Source of the DNA: an uncultured Lachnospiraceae bacterium
GTDB taxonomy: Bacteria > Bacillota > Clostridia > Lachnospirales > Lachnospiraceae
Length of the DNA: 17,929 nt
Direction: 5' to 3'
Assembly (NCBI GenBank): GCA_902783735.1
Contig: CACZSE010000082.1
Coordinates: 1-17,929, forward strand
Position numbers and translations under genes: made by a program. Under the pieces are notes generated by a model that worked only from the letters and a program-made list of their open reading frames with translations, was not told the origin of the DNA and ran no database searches. Below, piece after piece: positions 2,729-15,691 of the stretch (position 1 is its first letter; each line of letters begins with the position of its first letter).

Positions 2729-3922
2729 TTACTGACTGAGATCCTCTCCGGATTTATATCTGGCTACGATATTATTTATCCTTTCGCTTGGTACCAGCAG
2801 ATCGCTTATGGAAGAATCATGATTAAGAGTATCTATTATATATGCTATGTACTTGCTTAAGTCACAGCTTATATACCATTCCTTTTCGAGGAGTTCCGGC
2901 GGCTGATAGATCAGATTGGTTGTCAGCACCTTTGTGAACAGACCCGATTCATATGCACGATCGAATTTTTCGAAACCGTTGGTGAACAGTCCGAAGGTAG
3001 AAAACAGGAATATCCTGTTGGCTTCACGTTTTTTCAGTTCGGATGCAACATCAAGCATGCTGTCGCCTGAAGAGATCATGTCATCAAGAATGATAACATC
3101 CTTTCCCGCAACATTTGATCCGAGGAATTCATGTGCTATTATGGGATTTCTTCCGTCAACAACTCTTGTATAGTCACGTCGTTTATAGAACATACCCATA
3201 TCAAGACCCAAAACGTTTGCAATATAGATAGCACGGCTCATGCCGCCTTCGTCAGGGCTTATTACCATCATGTGATCGGAATCTATCTGAAGATCCTTTA
3301 CATGTGTAAGCAGACCTTTAATAAACTGATATGATGCCTGAACCGTTTCAAAACCATGAAGCGGGATCGCATTTTGAACACGCGGGTCGTGAGCATCAAA
3401 GGTGATGATATTGTCTACACCCATGCTTATAAGTTCCTGAAGGGCAATGGCGCAGTCAAGAGATTCTCTTGCCGTACGTTTGTGCTGACGACTTTCATAG
3501 AGGAAAGGCATAATGACCGTTATTCTTCTTGCTTTGCCACCGACAGCCGCGATTATACGCTTAAGATCCTGATAATGGTCATCGGGCGACATATGATTTT
3601 TCTGTCCCGCCAGGGTATAGGTCAGGGAGTAGTTGCAGACATCTACAAGTATGTACAGGTCTGTGCCTCTGACCGATTCAAGTATCTCACCTTTTCCTTC
3701 GCCCGAACCAAATCTTGATACTTTGCTCTTAAGGATGTATGAGTCTCTCATATATCCGGCGAATGCAAGACTGTTTTTATGTTCATTTTCACGCTCGGTT
3801 CTCCAATCTACCAGATAGGAGTCAACCTTCTCTCCGAGAAGCTTGCATCCGCTGAGGGGGATGATACCGAGGCTGCCGACAGGAATACTGTCGAGTTTTC
3901 TTTTTTCTTCGCGTCTAGCCAT
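2729..3922 (-). CDS. prs: Ribose-phosphate pyrophosphokinase (PRPP synthetase), long divergent form
   Basis: Predicted to make 5-phosphoribosyl-1-pyrophosphate from ribose 5-phosphate and ATP for purine, pyrimidine, NAD, His and Trp synthesis in the cytosol. At 397 residues it is clearly longer than the usual form of about 315, with an N-terminal extension and inserts. Family landmarks are visible: PFLYESRQHKRTARES (139-154, equivalent to the PY.YARQDRK region), FDAHDPRVQ with the conserved catalytic-region His at 178, SPDEGG (222-227), the Lys-Arg-Arg of FYKRRDY (247-249), and the PRPP loop DDMISSGDSM (280-289). That loop differs from the common DDMIDTAGT form. The gene lies 26 bases after the dnaC/I-like gene in the same direction. 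A GTGAGG stretch about 13 bases upstream is only a weak Shine-Dalgarno. A standard-length paralogue probably exists elsewhere. A divergent phosphoribosyltransferase-fold protein with another role cannot be excluded. Confidence 0.85.
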   Translation of the reverse strand: MARREEKRKLDSIPVGSLGIIPLSGCKLLGEKVDSYLVDWRTERENEHKNSLAFAGYMRDSYILKSKVSRFGSGEGKGEILESVRGTDLYILVDVCNYSLTYTLAGQKNHMSPDDHYQDLKRIIAAVGGKARRITVIMPFLYESRQHKRTARESLDCAIALQELISMGVDNIITFDAHDPRVQNAIPLHGFETVQASYQFIKGLLTHVKDLQIDSDHMMVISPDEGGMSRAIYIANVLGLDMGMFYKRRDYTRVVDGRNPIIAHEFLGSNVAGKDVIILDDMISSGDSMLDVASELKKREANRIFLFSTFGLFTNGFEKFDRAYESGLFTKVLTTNLIYQPPELLEKEWYISCDLSKYIAYIIDTLNHDSSISDLLVPSERINNIVARYKSGEDLSQ

Positions 3923-3948: not shown

Positions 3949-4920
3949 TTATGCATTTGACCGGTCAAACTTGGTTTTGAACCGGATGTCCGGACCGTAA
4001 AGCTTGCAAAATGTATAGCCGCCGACAAGTCTTGAGTAGATTCTTTCGGTATATGTTTCTGCAATGGCTTTAGGGGACAGATTGGTTGATATTATAGTAG
4101 ATCTCTTGTTTAAAAAACGTTCATTTAAGCAGGTGAACAGTGTAGAGATCGTAAAACTGTTAACCTGTTCCGTTCCAAGATCGTCTATTATGAGCAGATC
4201 ACTTTCAAATATGTCTGAGTGGCTTGAATAAAGATCCTCTCTTTTCTTATAGTCAAATGAATACCTTGAAAAGAGATCCATCAGAGCAGAAGCGCTGAAA
4301 TAGAGCACGGTATGCTCTTTTTCTATCAATGACCTTGCGATGCAGGCACTTATCAGTGATTTGCCGCTACCCACTGTACCATAAATCACAAGGTTTTTAA
4401 AGTCGTTATCAAAGTTTTTTACAAAATTGACTGCATTGTTATAGGTATCTTTGAAAGAAGTGAGTTCATCGCCGGTATAGTATTTGTCAGATACCATTGA
4501 AAAGTCAACGGATTTAAGATAATCGTTGATATTTGAATTATTGTAGAGCATTGAGACTGCCATCTTTTTGAGACAATGGCATCTTTGACCGTCTATATAT
4601 CCCGTGTCCATACAGTCCTTGCAGGTATAGATCGGGGAAAGATAATCTTCCGGGAGGGAAGCGTTTTTTAATAATTCCTTTTTCTTATCGGAAAGTTCTG
4701 AGAATTCCTTTTTGTATTCATCTGAAGAAGATACATTTCCGGCAAGGAGCTGTTTGGCATGTTCCATGCTGAGAGAGACCATCTTGTCCGACAGTTCTTT
4801 AAAACCGGGTATGTTTTCTTCAACATAGACCCTTCGTCTGTCCGATTCCGCCTGGTTTAGCATTCTTCTTTCGTCGTATACTCTTTTAATGGATTCGAAT
4901 TGTATATTTGTAAATGCCAC
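3949..4920 (-). CDS. DnaC/DnaI-like replicative helicase loader (AAA+ ATPase)
   Basis: A 323-residue AAA+ protein expected to load the replicative DnaB-type helicase at origins or restart sites. The N-terminal 90 residues are charged and helical. A zinc-binding motif follows: Cys100, Cys103, Cys114 and Cys116 (CKDCMDTGYIDGQRCHC). The ATPase core has Walker A GTVGSGKS (181-188), Walker B LLIIDDLG (242-249), a sensor-I-like ISTN (277-280) and an arginine-finger-like RIYSR (293-297). The Zn cluster plus AAA+ arrangement matches Bacillus DnaI and its clostridial relatives; DnaC-like transposition ATPases (IstB) are a more distant alternative. The start is GTG at 4920, with CGGAG 6 bases upstream. 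It lies 40 bases downstream of the DnaD-like gene, the usual partner in helicase loading. Confidence 0.9.
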   Translation of the reverse strand: MAFTNIQFESIKRVYDERRMLNQAESDRRRVYVEENIPGFKELSDKMVSLSMEHAKQLLAGNVSSSDEYKKEFSELSDKKKELLKNASLPEDYLSPIYTCKDCMDTGYIDGQRCHCLKKMAVSMLYNNSNINDYLKSVDFSMVSDKYYTGDELTSFKDTYNNAVNFVKNFDNDFKNLVIYGTVGSGKSLISACIARSLIEKEHTVLYFSASALMDLFSRYSFDYKKREDLYSSHSDIFESDLLIIDDLGTEQVNSFTISTLFTCLNERFLNKRSTIISTNLSPKAIAETYTERIYSRLVGGYTFCKLYGPDIRFKTKFDRSNA

Positions 4921-4960: not shown

Positions 4961-6046
4961 CTATTCGCGTGACAGCAGAGCTTTTTCCATTTCATCATAA
5001 TCGTAGTCATGCTTCATGTCAAATTGATGGAATGAAGTATTGGCTGTCTTTTTGGGACGATGATACTTTGCATCTATCTCGTCTATATCTGTCTTATTTA
5101 CTACTCCTGCCTGACTCCAGCTCTTTAAAATGGAATCTGCATATGCAAAACGGTTTTTGTCGGTCGACATGACGCTTCTCTCGCAGGCTTCTAAGATAAT
5201 GTCGGAGCTGAAGCCGAAATCATTTGTCCAGCGTCTGACATAATCGGCCTCCTTGTCGGTCGGAGAAGAACTCTTTCCAAGTGCTCTCATGACAGAATAT
5301 ACCGATTTATCGTATCGACCCGAGGTTGCTTTTGCTTCTTCGGGAGTGGTAATGCCTTCCTGTGCCCAGTTAATGGCAACAGATTCTATATATCTGAAAC
5401 TCTTTTTATCTTTATTAACACAATAAGCTAACAGATAATCGATCAGGTCTGTCGAAAAATGCAAAACATCCGTAATAAACAACAAAGATTTGATGTCTGA
5501 CGGACTTAAAGTCTTTCCCAGATACTGCTCGGCAATGAATATGATCTGAGCGGTATCCTCCTGATCCTTAAATGCCTTAAGATCATCCAATGAGTATGCG
5601 GGTTTGACAAAACCGTTCATGGGATGTTCTTCCGTTACCGGATTCTGTACTTCCCGGGCAGTTTTGTGCGTTGCAGAAACGTGATCTGCACCCGAAACGT
5701 AAGGAAGCGCTACCGGAATAAACGGCTTTGAAGATACCTCGGATATCGCTGCAGTCTTAAAAGGTGGGTTAAGCTTTACACCGACAACAGCGCCGTCAAG
5801 ATCGTAATTCAGTGAGAGGAGACCAAACTTCTCCCAGTATTTTAAAGCTCTGCAAATATCCTTTTCCGTATAATTGAATTTATCTGCCATATCGGAAATA
5901 CTTGTAGTACTTCCCGTCATTCGCATTAGATAAAGATAGACTTTGATCTGCGCTGCATTTGCATCCGCAAGATAATCATCGATAAACTGATTTGATACAT
6001 ATGTATAGCCGTTGTCGGCCTCGCGGTAAACTGAAAACTTACTCAT
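4961..6046 (-). CDS. DnaD-like replication initiation protein with tandem DnaD domains
   Basis: A 361-residue protein with the organisation of the DnaD/DnaB primosomal family of Firmicutes. Residues 1-95 look like a winged-helix domain (QIKVYLYLMRMTG, then ADKFNYTEKDICRALKYWEKFGLL). A variable linker follows (about 96-160). Two DnaD C-terminal-type domains come next, at about 165-235 and 250-325. Each ends in a version of the YxxxIxxxW signature: YIESVAINW (219-227) and YADSILKSW (302-310). Such proteins remodel DNA and recruit the helicase loader, which is encoded just downstream. I chose the ATG at 6046, preceded by GGGTGG; an upstream in-frame TTG at 6067 lacks support. The gene lies downstream of an extended -10 promoter and, further up, a DnaA-box cluster. 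Confidence 0.88.
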   Translation of the reverse strand: MSKFSVYREADNGYTYVSNQFIDDYLADANAAQIKVYLYLMRMTGSTTSISDMADKFNYTEKDICRALKYWEKFGLLSLNYDLDGAVVGVKLNPPFKTAAISEVSSKPFIPVALPYVSGADHVSATHKTAREVQNPVTEEHPMNGFVKPAYSLDDLKAFKDQEDTAQIIFIAEQYLGKTLSPSDIKSLLFITDVLHFSTDLIDYLLAYCVNKDKKSFRYIESVAINWAQEGITTPEEAKATSGRYDKSVYSVMRALGKSSSPTDKEADYVRRWTNDFGFSSDIILEACERSVMSTDKNRFAYADSILKSWSQAGVVNKTDIDEIDAKYHRPKKTANTSFHQFDMKHDYDYDEMEKALLSRE

Positions 6047-6073
6047 CGTTCCACCCGTTATTCCCAATACTGT

Positions 6074-6093
6074 CCGGAAAGATCCGTTTTCCG
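6074..6093. repeat. Short inverted repeat in the dnaD-like leader
   Basis: CGGAAA (6075-6080) and TTTCCG (6088-6093) form 6-bp arms around a 7-base spacer. The element lies in the untranslated leader between the predicted start of transcription (about 6099) and the ATG at 6046, so it could form a small RNA hairpin. No T run follows, so it is not a terminator. It may be chance. Confidence 0.3.
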
Positions 6094-6105
6094 AATGTAA
6101 GGTGA

Positions 6106-6114
6106 ATTATAGCA
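6106..6114 (-). promoter_or_regulatory. Extended -10 promoter for the dnaD-dnaC/I-prs-aqpZ operon
   Basis: On the minus strand the sequence reads TGCTATAAT, a perfect -10 hexamer with the TG of an extended -10. The -35 region at 17-bp spacing is weak and T-rich, which suits an extended -10 promoter. Transcription would start near 6099, leaving a leader of about 50 bases. The triple DnaA-box array lies roughly 70-100 bases upstream of this -10. Confidence 0.6.
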
Positions 6115-6181
6115 CAGCATCTGAAAAAATAAAACAGTCCAAAGTACCACGAAGCCTTGATTTTACTGGGGATTTTGGGAT

Positions 6182-6208
6182 TGTGGATAATGTGGATATT
6201 GTGGATAT
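6182..6208. promoter_or_regulatory. Three fused DnaA-box-like 9-mers
   Basis: TGTGGATAA (6182-6190), TGTGGATAT (6191-6199) and TGTGGATAT (6200-6208) follow one another with no spacer. The first is the exact reverse complement of the DnaA box TTATCCACA; the other two differ only in the last base. Looser relatives (TGGGGATTT at 6167) extend the pattern to the left. The array lies upstream of the dnaD-like promoter, where bound DnaA could regulate the operon or be titrated. DnaA binding is inferred from sequence only. Confidence 0.7.
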
Positions 6209-6257
6209 CAAAACAGCATCTGCCGAAAAATATCGAAAAAGTCAAAGCTTGTTTTAT

Positions 6258-6311
6258 AAAAATTATCCACCGGATCTCTATGTTTCAAAACATTGAAATT
6301 CGGTGGATAAT
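6258..6311 (-). terminator. Probable murC terminator built from inverted DnaA-box-like sequences
   Basis: Read on the minus strand, an 11-bp arm ATTATCCACCG (6311-6301) lies about 10 bases after the murC stop and pairs perfectly with CGGTGGATAAT (6272-6262). The 28-base loop holds a second small hairpin (ATGTTT/AAACAT). The distal arm runs straight into TTTT (6261-6258). This is the layout of an intrinsic terminator, though the stem is only moderately GC-rich and the loop is long. Confidence 0.5.
6263..6271 (+). promoter_or_regulatory. DnaA-box-like site, opposite orientation
   Basis: TTATCCACC matches the DnaA box TTATCCACA at eight of nine positions and points opposite to the other boxes in this gap. 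It also forms the distal arm of the murC terminator hairpin. Confidence 0.5.
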
Positions 6312-6319
6312 GTGGATAA
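6302..6319. promoter_or_regulatory. Two fused DnaA-box-like 9-mers beside the murC stop
   Basis: GGTGGATAA (6302-6310) is directly followed by TGTGGATAA (6311-6319), an exact reverse-complement DnaA box. The 9-bp period with no spacer matches the triple array at 6182-6208. The pair ends one base before the murC stop codon. Confidence 0.65.
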
Positions 6320-6320
6320 T

Positions 6321-7697
6321 TTATTTTCCAAGAAGGCTTTCGCCGACTTTTACTATATCTCCGGCCCCCATGGTTATCAACAAATCGGATTGTGAACAAT
6401 TTTCCAAAAGAAAATTTTCAATTTCGTCGAAGGTGGGGAAGTAGTAGCATTCTTTGCCCTCTTTTTCAATCTCTTTTTTAAGATCCAGAGATGAGATGCC
6501 GATGGTATTTTTTTCTCTTGCGGCATATATATCGGCCAGAACTATCTTGTCTGCAAGCGACAGGGCTTTCGCAAAATCCGTAAGGAAGGCTTTGGTCCTG
6601 GTATATGTATGTGGCTGAAAAACACACCACAGAGTCTTGTGCGGATAGTTTTGTGCAGCTGTGAGTGTAGCTTTTATCTCAGTAGGATGGTGAGCGTAGT
6701 CATCTATGATCGTCACGCCTCCGATCTCTCCTTTTTTCTCAAACCTTCTGTCGGTTCCCGTAAAGCCTTCGAGAGCAGAAACCGCTGTATCACTGTCAAT
6801 GCCTGCTATATCGGTAAATGCGATCGCTGCCATGGAATTGTATACATTGTGTATTCCCGGGACTTTCAGATCTATTCGGCGTTCACCGTTCTTACCGTGC
6901 AGTGTATATGAGGGATGCGCAAATTCATCATATGAGATATCCGTAGCATAATAGTCGAATGAATCATTCATGCCGTAGGTGACATATTTGCAGGAAAGAC
7001 CGGATACCATTTCATCCAATCTGTCGATCTCACCGTTTATGATGAGTGTTCCGTCTTCGGGAAGGAGTCCGGCAAATCTCTTAAATGAAGAACGGATATC
7101 TTCTATATCCTTGAAAAAGTCCATATGATCTTCTTCTATATTAAGGATAATGGCTATCTTGGGGAAAAAGCTTAAGAAACTGTTCGTATATTCACAGGCT
7201 TCCGTTAAGAAATAATCCGAATGACCGATCCTTAGGTTTCCTCCGATGCTCTTTAGCATTCCGCCTACGGATACTGTGGGGTCGGTATCGGCATGCACGA
7301 GTATCTCGGTTATCATGGAAGTGGTAGTGGTCTTTCCGTGAGTTCCGCTGACAGCGATGGGAAGTTTGAAGTTTTTCATGATCTGTCCCAAAAGCTCTGC
7401 GCGTGAAAGACTTGAAAGGTTTAAGTCCTCTTTGGCGATCCACTCGGGGTTATCTTTTCCTATGGCAGCGGTATAAACGAATAAGTCTGTGTCGGAGGTA
7501 ACATTTTCTGCCCTCTGGCCGATGTGTATTTCAGCTCCTTTTTCGGCGAGGATCTTTGTAAGCTCGCTCTCTTTCATGTCAGACCCCGAAACCTTAAATC
7601 CGCGGGATAAGAGTATCTCGGCCAGACCGCTCATGCTTATGCCGCCTATGCCGCAAAAATATACGTGACAGGGTTTGTTAAAATCCAACTGATACAT
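6321..7697 (-). CDS. murC: UDP-N-acetylmuramate--L-alanine ligase
   Basis: Cytosolic ATP-dependent ligase that adds L-Ala to UDP-N-acetylmuramic acid, the first amino-acid addition in peptidoglycan precursor synthesis. The length of 458 residues is normal. The N-terminal UDP-binding loop is CGIGGISMSGLA (15-26). The Mur ligase P-loop is GTHGKTTTT (118-126). NIEEDHMDF (186-194) supplies the conserved metal-binding region, and DDYAHHPTE (332-340) with FQPHTYTRT (360-368) are the MurC-specific C-terminal signatures. The start ATG at 7697 is preceded by AGGAAGG at 7-base spacing. It is transcribed away from glgC and appears to be monocistronic, ending at a hairpin built from DnaA-box-like repeats ahead of the dnaD-like operon. 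Confidence 0.97.
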   Translation of the reverse strand: MYQLDFNKPCHVYFCGIGGISMSGLAEILLSRGFKVSGSDMKESELTKILAEKGAEIHIGQRAENVTSDTDLFVYTAAIGKDNPEWIAKEDLNLSSLSRAELLGQIMKNFKLPIAVSGTHGKTTTTSMITEILVHADTDPTVSVGGMLKSIGGNLRIGHSDYFLTEACEYTNSFLSFFPKIAIILNIEEDHMDFFKDIEDIRSSFKRFAGLLPEDGTLIINGEIDRLDEMVSGLSCKYVTYGMNDSFDYYATDISYDEFAHPSYTLHGKNGERRIDLKVPGIHNVYNSMAAIAFTDIAGIDSDTAVSALEGFTGTDRRFEKKGEIGGVTIIDDYAHHPTEIKATLTAAQNYPHKTLWCVFQPHTYTRTKAFLTDFAKALSLADKIVLADIYAAREKNTIGISSLDLKKEIEKEGKECYYFPTFDEIENFLLENCSQSDLLITMGAGDIVKVGESLLGK

Positions 7698-15007: not shown

Positions 15008-15691
15008 ATGGAACAGACCGGATGGGAAAGATTCAAACATAAAGTTGCAAAGTGGATACCGACGCACATTTCCCCCAAAACGATTGTGTTGTTTTACGGT
15101 TTGTTTGACAGACTCAGTTTTATAGGGAGATCCGTAAGAAATAAGCACAGAGCCTATAACGAGACCGTACTGTCCGGGGAAGATTCCCCTCTGACAAACG
15201 GTTATATAGATAATCAGTCACAGTGGAAGGATGTATTGTTCGGCAAAAGGGATATGGCCTATTCTGGCTGTGAGATAATGGCTGTGTATAATGCATTATA
15301 TGCGCTCGGAAAGGGAAGCGGATATAAGCTTATAGCGGAACTGATCGAGGAATTTGAGAAGAGCGGAGCTGCCATGGGCGGTATCATCGGTTCATCTCCG
15401 ACATCGATAAAAAGACATTTAAAGAAGCACGGGATAAAAAGCCGTATCGTCTGGCAGGAGGATAAGCTCGATCCCGACACGGATTTAGCGATAGTAACGG
15501 TTTATAACGACAAGAACACCTTATATTCGCAGATACATACCATCACCTTTACAAGGGATGAAAACGGATTCAGCGCACATAATGCTTACAGCAGACAAAA
15601 ATACTATACGACTCTCAAGGATGCGATAGGAGGAGTCGGAACCGATCCCAAGATGATATGTGCTATAGAGATCGATAAGAAAAGTTTATAG
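15008..15691 (+). CDS. C39-like cysteine-peptidase-fold protein in the mfd-pth operon
   Basis: A 227-residue protein with no signal peptide or obvious membrane anchor, so probably cytosolic. Residues 1-65 are basic then mixed (one hydrophobic patch around 22-40). From about 66 on it resembles papain-like C39 domains: NQSQWKDVLFG (69-79) could supply the oxyanion Gln, AYSGCEIMAVYNAL (84-97) carries the likely nucleophile Cys88 at the start of a helix, and QIHTITF (175-181) places the likely catalytic His177 on a strand, followed by the turn FSAHNAYSRQKYY with Asn192 as possible third residue. No bacteriocin transporter is fused or adjacent, so the usual leader-peptidase role is not supported. 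It starts 30 bases after pth with GGAG five bases upstream of the ATG, within the same transcript. Substrate and function are unknown. Confidence 0.8.
   Translation: MEQTGWERFKHKVAKWIPTHISPKTIVLFYGLFDRLSFIGRSVRNKHRAYNETVLSGEDSPLTNGYIDNQSQWKDVLFGKRDMAYSGCEIMAVYNALYALGKGSGYKLIAELIEEFEKSGAAMGGIIGSSPTSIKRHLKKHGIKSRIVWQEDKLDPDTDLAIVTVYNDKNTLYSQIHTITFTRDENGFSAHNAYSRQKYYTTLKDAIGGVGTDPKMICAIEIDKKSL

Follow-up and report, generated by a model that had tools for sequence, protein, structure and literature searches.

Clusters of DnaA boxes, the binding sites of the replication initiator DnaA, are a known class of element outside the replication origin (oriC). In Bacillus subtilis, the regions ywcI/vpr, gcp/ydiF, trmE/jag, ywlC/ywlB, yqeG/sda and yydA are reportedly the six clusters of Okumura 2012. 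All of these are among the strong DnaA regions in the consulted part of a B. subtilis study, in which DnaA also activates sda from a box array (PMC4447404), while the excerpts at hand of two reviews disagree on how far the B. subtilis clusters regulate initiation (PMC5295017, PMC13220808). Box density near the origin is tied to titration in Escherichia coli in the section of a report that treats it (PMC12371093); the E. coli datA locus, as summarized in part of another, consists of clustered boxes that follow a transcription unit, the terminator or attenuator of which limits read-through into them, and it uses IHF and promotes hydrolysis of ATP-DnaA (PMC10950094). In Caulobacter, predicted DnaA boxes lie upstream of the helicase gene dnaB, a member of the DnaA regulon with expression tied to DnaA (PMC8203912, in part). 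Replication initiation control is poorly known in clostridia, and how Clostridioides difficile regulates DnaA activity is reported as unknown in the passage available (PMC7561715). Here we describe an array of seven DnaA-box-like 9-mers that runs from the 3' end of murC to the promoter region of a dnaD-like gene in 17,929 bases of an uncultured Lachnospiraceae bacterium (the window). We consider this to be, with a probability of roughly 0.6, a conserved array for both regulation and titration, predicted to be bound by DnaA and to link free DnaA to expression of dnaD and the adjoining DnaC/DnaI-like gene.

The window is one contig (C82) of a genome of 2.16 Mb in 349 contigs that is 77% complete. 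Three genes on its minus strand set the scene: murC (6321..7697), with Pfam Mur ligase domains; the dnaD-like gene (4961..6046), with a DnaB_2 domain (Pfam PF07261, E 6e-42); and a gene for a DnaC/DnaI-like AAA+ protein (3949..4920; Pfam Bac_DnaA, 1.9e-10, and IstB_IS21, 1e-9), which from its position and resemblance is presumed to be the helicase loader. The array lies downstream of murC and upstream of dnaD, and its predicted boxes fall into three layers. First, box M (TTATCAACA, 6374..6382, plus strand) is inside the murC coding sequence, over codons for Leu-Leu-Ile-Thr, and is inverted relative to boxes A, B and D-F. Second, box A, an exact TTATCCACA (6311..6319, minus strand), stands immediately past the murC stop codon and is followed 9 bp on by box B (TTATCCACC, one mismatch, 6302..6310, minus strand). 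Box B doubles as the 5' arm of a terminator-like hairpin at the murC end (6256..6311, minus strand; arms 6301-6311 and 6262-6272), of which the inverted box C (TTATCCACC, one mismatch, 6263..6271, plus strand) forms the 3' arm, with a T-rich tail (TTTTAT) at 6256-6261. Third, boxes D, E and F make up a gapless tandem triplet, ATATCCACA ATATCCACA TTATCCACA (6182..6208, minus strand), with one mismatch each at 6200-6208 and 6191-6199 and an exact TTATCCACA at 6182-6190, ahead of the presumed dnaD promoter, an extended -10 (TGCTATAAT, 6106..6114, minus strand) with a poor -35. A preliminary description of the window had named the same three genes, as the Pfam domains bear out, and had listed two exact and four one-mismatch boxes; all six are present at 6182-6319, but the seventh, in murC, was missed, as was the part that B and C play as hairpin arms.

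The array resembles the B. subtilis clusters in that multiple boxes share a gap between genes at a distance from oriC, as at sda, where they regulate a neighbor (PMC4447404, in part). It differs from them in its register to the dnaD promoter, in the two boxes that are arms of a terminator-like hairpin, in the one coding box and in its recurrence across families; moreover, Table 1 of the same study places none of the 20 strongest DnaA regions at dnaD, dnaB-dnaI or murC. Its place after a transcription unit with a terminator-like end is shared with datA, which, in contrast, has a described mechanism with IHF and ATP-DnaA hydrolysis (PMC10950094, in part), whereas our array is known from sequence. 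Likewise, Caulobacter dnaB shares the placement of boxes before a replication gene, although that gene encodes a helicase and not a loader, and the consulted part of the report describes no conserved array (PMC8203912). Among the titles and beginnings of abstracts listed, which covered few subscription papers, none concerned DnaA boxes in the murC-dnaD gap; the class is known, and we met in that literature neither an array at this position or of this architecture nor one so deeply conserved.

The array is strongly conserved at the murC-dnaD junction. A scan for DnaD yielded 80 named loci, many of them closely related and hence not independent, of which those closest to the window belong to Lachnospiraceae. 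Counting boxes with at most one mismatch in the 450 bases before dnaD, we found at least four in 77 of the 80 loci, the exceptions being L031 (three boxes) and L021 and L035 (cut off by contig ends), while the rate elsewhere in these loci was 0.00-0.55 per 450 bases. The alignment across Lachnospiraceae that the preliminary description proposed thus kept the array; equal density in other gaps, which it had named as grounds for doubt, was rare, since in just 2 of 73 named loci did any other 250-bp stretch of the fetched sequence match or exceed the box density of the dnaD gap. We also compared one genome per genus (the genus sample), in which DnaD was found in 79 of 80 genomes and 76 of the 79 upstream pieces were used, omitting the window's own genome, G034 (contig start) and G064 (weak hit). 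At least three boxes, the murC box counted, were present in 70 of these 76 pieces, and the murC end was visible in 72. When only the gap was counted, in the 71 genera with at least 60 bp between murC and dnaD (gaps over 560 bp trimmed to 560), there were 336 boxes, compared to 32.75 in shuffles; 60 genera had at least three boxes (1.4 expected), and 43 had at least two exact copies of TTATNCACA (none in shuffles). The very short gaps of G010, G047 and G056 (61, 32 and 65 bp) held at most two boxes each.

The boxes are also in excess within the window and its genome. With at most one mismatch, TTATCCACA matches the window 12 times, compared to an expectation of 5.7 for the window as a whole, and 12 matches were attained in 3 of 200 shuffles; seven of the 12 lie inside 201 bp. 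Genome-wide there are 20 exact copies (9 of the reversed control pattern), and two such copies lie less than 500 bp apart only on C82, at the array, and on contig C52, beside dnaA. Matches to TTATNCACA number 65 across the genome (57 for the reversed control), with groups within 150 bp again on these two contigs only. The tandem pattern TATNCACANTATNCACA occurs twice in this genome, both times at the array, and its reversed control not at all. In this genome scan, as suggested in the preliminary description, close pairs of exact boxes are confined to the array and the dnaA side. We reject a chance cluster on the conservation in the named loci together with the excess over shuffles.

Several observations point to DnaA as the protein that would use these sites. 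The DnaA of this genome carries RKDHTTVMHG in its last domain, which we take to mark the DnaA DNA-binding domain. We examined the positions of box A in an upstream set of 78 rows, made up of the window and 77 of the 80 named loci (L021, L035 and L080, with fewer than 380 bases upstream, were dropped), choosing as box A the best match within a six-base range with position 5 ignored. Across 77 rows, position 5 is mostly C (39) or T (35), with two G and one A, while every other position is identical in 70-77 rows, and the offset from A to B is 9 in 73. Since the variable position is the N of TTATNCACA, box A matches the DnaA box consensus as given in the consulted part of PMC4447404. The region upstream of dnaA in the family has few gapless 9-bp direct pairs (4 in 20 genomes, compared to 97 in 76 at dnaD), as might be expected if some other DNA-binding protein with a TTATCCACA-like site used the tandem repeats, but the degeneracy of box A at position 5 fits the DnaA consensus, and we regard another protein as very unlikely. 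With the box excess and conservation described above, we class the array as a DnaA-box cluster outside oriC, at which DnaA binding is predicted.

The spacing of the boxes sets the array apart from the gap upstream of dnaA, the presumed oriC, which has the same 9-mer. Same-strand pairs at dnaD are spaced mainly by 9 (97 pairs), 12 (22) and 21 bp (20) in the 76 genera, and by 9 (30), 12 (22) and 21 bp (16) in 40 genomes hand-chosen to span 19 other families of the order. In 20 hand-chosen gaps upstream of dnaA, the common arrangements are a forward box followed by an inverted one at 12 (18) and 23 bp (17) and same-strand pairs at 11 bp (16), with a spacing of 9 bp seen only four times; the layout that recurs in these gaps of the family (L269-L288) is a forward box with inverted ones 12 and 23 bp further on. 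Three genomes (G129, G136 and G204) have direct boxes at 0, 9 and 21 bp and an inverted box at 48 bp at the murC end, with the direct part repeated before dnaD; in G149 the direct boxes at 0, 9 and 21 bp occur at both places, and the second copy has the inverted box at 48 bp. Thus, the array is no simple duplicate of the cluster beside dnaA. The same comparison bears on whether the array is a secondary or ancestral replication origin, for which the dense boxes, the adjoining genes for presumed helicase loaders and the moderately AT-rich gap (64%, compared to 58% for the window) might speak. However, dnaA is on C52 with its own box-rich gap upstream (the far-side gene is rpmH-like by eye), and 9-bp direct tandems do not dominate among the dnaA-side boxes. 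The preliminary description was therefore right not to call the array oriC, and the secondary initiation site that it had entertained we reject, on dnaA location and box spacing, as scarcely credible.

At the other end of the gap, the boxes are aligned with the predicted dnaD promoter. An extended -10 (TGN followed by a TATAAT-like hexamer) precedes dnaD in 77 of the 78 named rows; among controls, the motif turned up in 11 of 234 stretches and in 77 of 1560 shuffles. The -35 is poor under a scoring that favored TG; the count with controls is the fair one. In the named rows, direct boxes start 75-80, 85-89 and 95-98 bp before the extended -10, with a further group at 53-54 bp, and in the genus sample there are peaks at 76-79, 84-88 and 96-97 bp, with scatter outside. 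The tandem boxes about 78, 87 and 96 bp upstream of the -10 stand in a 9-bp register to the predicted promoter. Activation is slightly favored over repression as the sign of regulation, because the promoter has a poor -35 and the array, which stands well upstream, does not overlap it.

We considered that boxes B and C might be no more than the two arms of a murC terminator, with the TATCCACA repeats being stem sequence that is unrelated to DnaA. The hairpin itself is well supported: the window RNA folds with -24.1 kcal/mol (z -6.6), and among 77 rows (L017, which has no core, was left out) core-to-core spacing is 31-32 in 73 and a T-rich tail (at least 6 of the 10 bases after box C being T) is present in 67. 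In an RNA alignment of 74 of the 76 distinct rows (L077 and L081 were excluded as doubtful; L083 duplicates L082), 94.3% of cells pair, compared to 74.4% when shuffled, and the covariation score is 0.443, compared to 0.123. Position 9 of the hairpin is A-U in 67 rows, C-G in six, which are the window and its five nearest loci (L005-L009), and G-C in one. It therefore has the stability, T-run and paired change of an intrinsic terminator, with a G+C-poor stem and a long loop; a mechanical terminator scan restricted to loops of 3-8 did not call it, and Rfam gave no known RNA family for window 5900-6500, its four hits, to three microRNA models, all scoring far under the cut-offs. Thus, a covarying hairpin with a T-rich tail would be explained by termination. 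In contrast, boxes A, D, E, F and M are conserved though outside the stem; five core pairs of the stem, where the core is also the search anchor, are invariant in the 74 rows while inner pairs vary; and in the genus sample the gapless direct pair (54 of 76 genera) is more widespread than any inverted box (37 of 76). Since it leaves A, D-F and M unexplained, we rejected termination as the sole function, which we hold to be highly improbable, and the same letters in B and C seem to serve as both DnaA box and RNA stem.

Box M provides evidence of a different kind. In 73 of the 74 rows, which come from the window and the named loci, the murC codons for Leu-Ile-Thr before Met-Gly-Ala-Gly are written TTG-ATA-AC; elsewhere in the same genes, TTG makes up about 10% of Leu codons and ATA about 20% of Ile codons. 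Among 45 testable codons near the murC end, these Leu, Ile and Thr codons have the three strongest synonymous constraints, and the preceding Leu has the fourth. The preference extends to the genus sample (TTG in 55 of 64 Leu, ATA in 59 of 67 Ile) and to other families (TTG in 12 of 17 Leu, ATA in 17 of 23 Ile). Reasoning from the genetic code, TTATCCACA would require a Trp codon here, and the closest that a box can come to it without changing the protein is TTATCAACA. In ten murC genes that retain the motif in genomes with dnaD located elsewhere (see below), the four with boxes after the stop codon all have TTG-ATA-ACT, and the six with at most one box there have other codons; three of the four come from one family, so few independent events are represented. 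Thus, box M appears to be held by synonymous codon choice and, if so, would be an unambiguous example of selection for a binding site inside a coding sequence.

The fifth constraint in this region is on a Val codon, GTA (window 6351-6353), nine codons after the Leu of Leu-Ile-Thr, used in 66 of 70 rows compared to 22% usage. That codon would be left unexplained by a DnaA box, and in this respect a promoter inside murC (TTGATA, 17, TATAGT) could be entertained as the cause of the codon constraint. We do not favor it, because the second hexamer seems unconserved and the constraint also spans the preceding Leu and the Thr codons.

The array also reaches other families of the order. In the 40 other-family genomes, the murC end was present in 25 of the upstream pieces, and 21 of these had at least three boxes; among the remaining 15 pieces, five had at least three boxes, with murC adjacent in two of the five (G126 and G131). 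We also searched with R1, a covariance model of the A-B-C region including the hairpin, which probably misses loci without an inverted box. R1 matched 6 genomes out of 17 in one set; in a sample of the order it matched 40 out of 147, at 45 places. Comparing the best 19 of the 45 places, we found dnaD positions for 16, and all 16 are at dnaD on the same strand (the dnaD start is partly extrapolated, and the match in G158 overlaps it by 45 bases); among the 26 weaker places, some are plainly away from dnaD (for example, G147, G201 and G203).

Several results weigh against reading the array as one for both regulation and titration. None of ten genomes in which dnaD is unlinked from murC (murC on another contig or 24 kb away) holds at least three boxes before dnaD, although the piece from G156 has just 28 bases there, so that control of dnaD does not hold throughout the order. 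When G146 is added to these ten, boxes remain at the murC end in 4 of the 11 genomes: G127, G145 and G156, all of one family, and G196, of a different one. Three boxes are scattered in G130, one is present in each of G146 and G148, and the rest have none. Within the family, 11 of the 71 genera with gaps of at least 60 bp have fewer than three boxes, the extended -10 is found in only 61 of the 76 pieces of the genus sample, and the limited occurrence of gapless pairs and inverted boxes noted above means that the full layout is not general. As for the hairpin, the alignment slid by -1 still scores 0.414, though with 56.8% pairing, and the seven pairs with two-sided changes are not above shuffles (6.4; 210/500). 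The distance from dnaD to dnaA varies: in the nine genomes where a single contig carries both genes, it ranges over 100-520 kb (start extrapolated in G048, contig taken as circular in G071, a dnaC-like hit used in G094 and an R1 hit in G085), and we dropped a fixed distance as a datA-like sign. In the part of PMC5295017 consulted, deletion of six B. subtilis clusters is said to cause early initiation, and clusters with significant regulatory roles are also said not to have been identified in that species. Finally, both DnaA binding and regulation at the array are deduced from comparing sequences. Against this background, the coupling of DnaA level to the helicase-loading genes, as put forward in the preliminary description, gains from the conservation, from box A varying at the N of TTATNCACA and from the promoter register, all of them at the level of sequence; the tie to dnaD holds in relatives, but it had been overlooked that part of the cluster can stay at murC without dnaD.

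Some of these results would suit pure titration, in which the boxes would only sequester DnaA, as the B. subtilis clusters do, and the nearness of dnaD would be incidental. In four of the 11 genomes with dnaD elsewhere, murC retains both its boxes and the coding box, dnaD lies 100-520 kb from dnaA in nine genomes, and in B. subtilis, according to the sections consulted, the clusters sequester DnaA and deletion of six leads to early initiation (PMC11019786, PMC5295017). However, titration would have no need of a 9-bp register to the dnaD -10. As the sole function, titration is in our view possible but doubtful; it is probably one part of what the array does, since boxes can remain at murC where dnaD is absent from its side.

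In the combined regulatory and titration array that we prefer, DnaA would assemble on the tandem boxes as a nucleoprotein filament, which would set transcription of dnaD and the DnaC/DnaI-like gene and so match helicase-loading capacity to free DnaA. The hairpin would end the murC transcript, block read-through into the array and leave dnaD on its own promoter, and the array might also soak up DnaA after initiation. Kept across families in register to the presumed promoter of the loader genes, the array offers a specific site at which initiator might feed back on loader. A more ambitious version, which we put forward as speculative and think unlikely, is a rheostat kept across much of the order: a single filament, reaching from the murC box across the terminator to the dnaD promoter, would set both murC read-through and dnaD-dnaC output, metering loaders, and perhaps cell-wall synthesis, against free DnaA. 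If true, such a rheostat would be the equivalent of datA/DARS in clostridia, with a grammar of boxes (direct at 9, 12 and 21, inverted at 48) unlike that of oriC.

Tandem arrays of this kind form a small set, to which the murC-dnaD array belongs. Across 17 genomes, the tandem pattern was counted 28 times, compared to once for the reversed control, and 14 of the 28 are at the murC-dnaD element (those in G085, G088 and G108 placed via R1 hits). Five of the other 14 lie before hpf-like (ribosome hibernation) genes in G029, G088, G094 and G108 (loci L207, L208, L209 and L211), named by Pfam for G029 and G094 and by eye for the others; all four genomes have an R1 hit. Five more, in G020, G060, G102, G003 and G109 (L199-L203, at about position 1500 in each), share a similar neighborhood that includes a secreted-looking gene without a Pfam match, 35-85 kb from dnaA on the same contig; MecA and DUF1858 were identified by Pfam beside this type of array in G020 only. 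The exact tandem pattern occurs nowhere else in these five genomes, and therefore not at dnaD. One further array lies before a parA-like gene in G088 (by eye).

Elsewhere in the window, two long open frames (15008-15691 and 46-1911) have no Pfam match. A protein of 397 amino acids resembling phosphoribosyl pyrophosphate (PRPP) synthetase is encoded at 2729-3922, on the same strand as the loader gene and 26 bases downstream of it.
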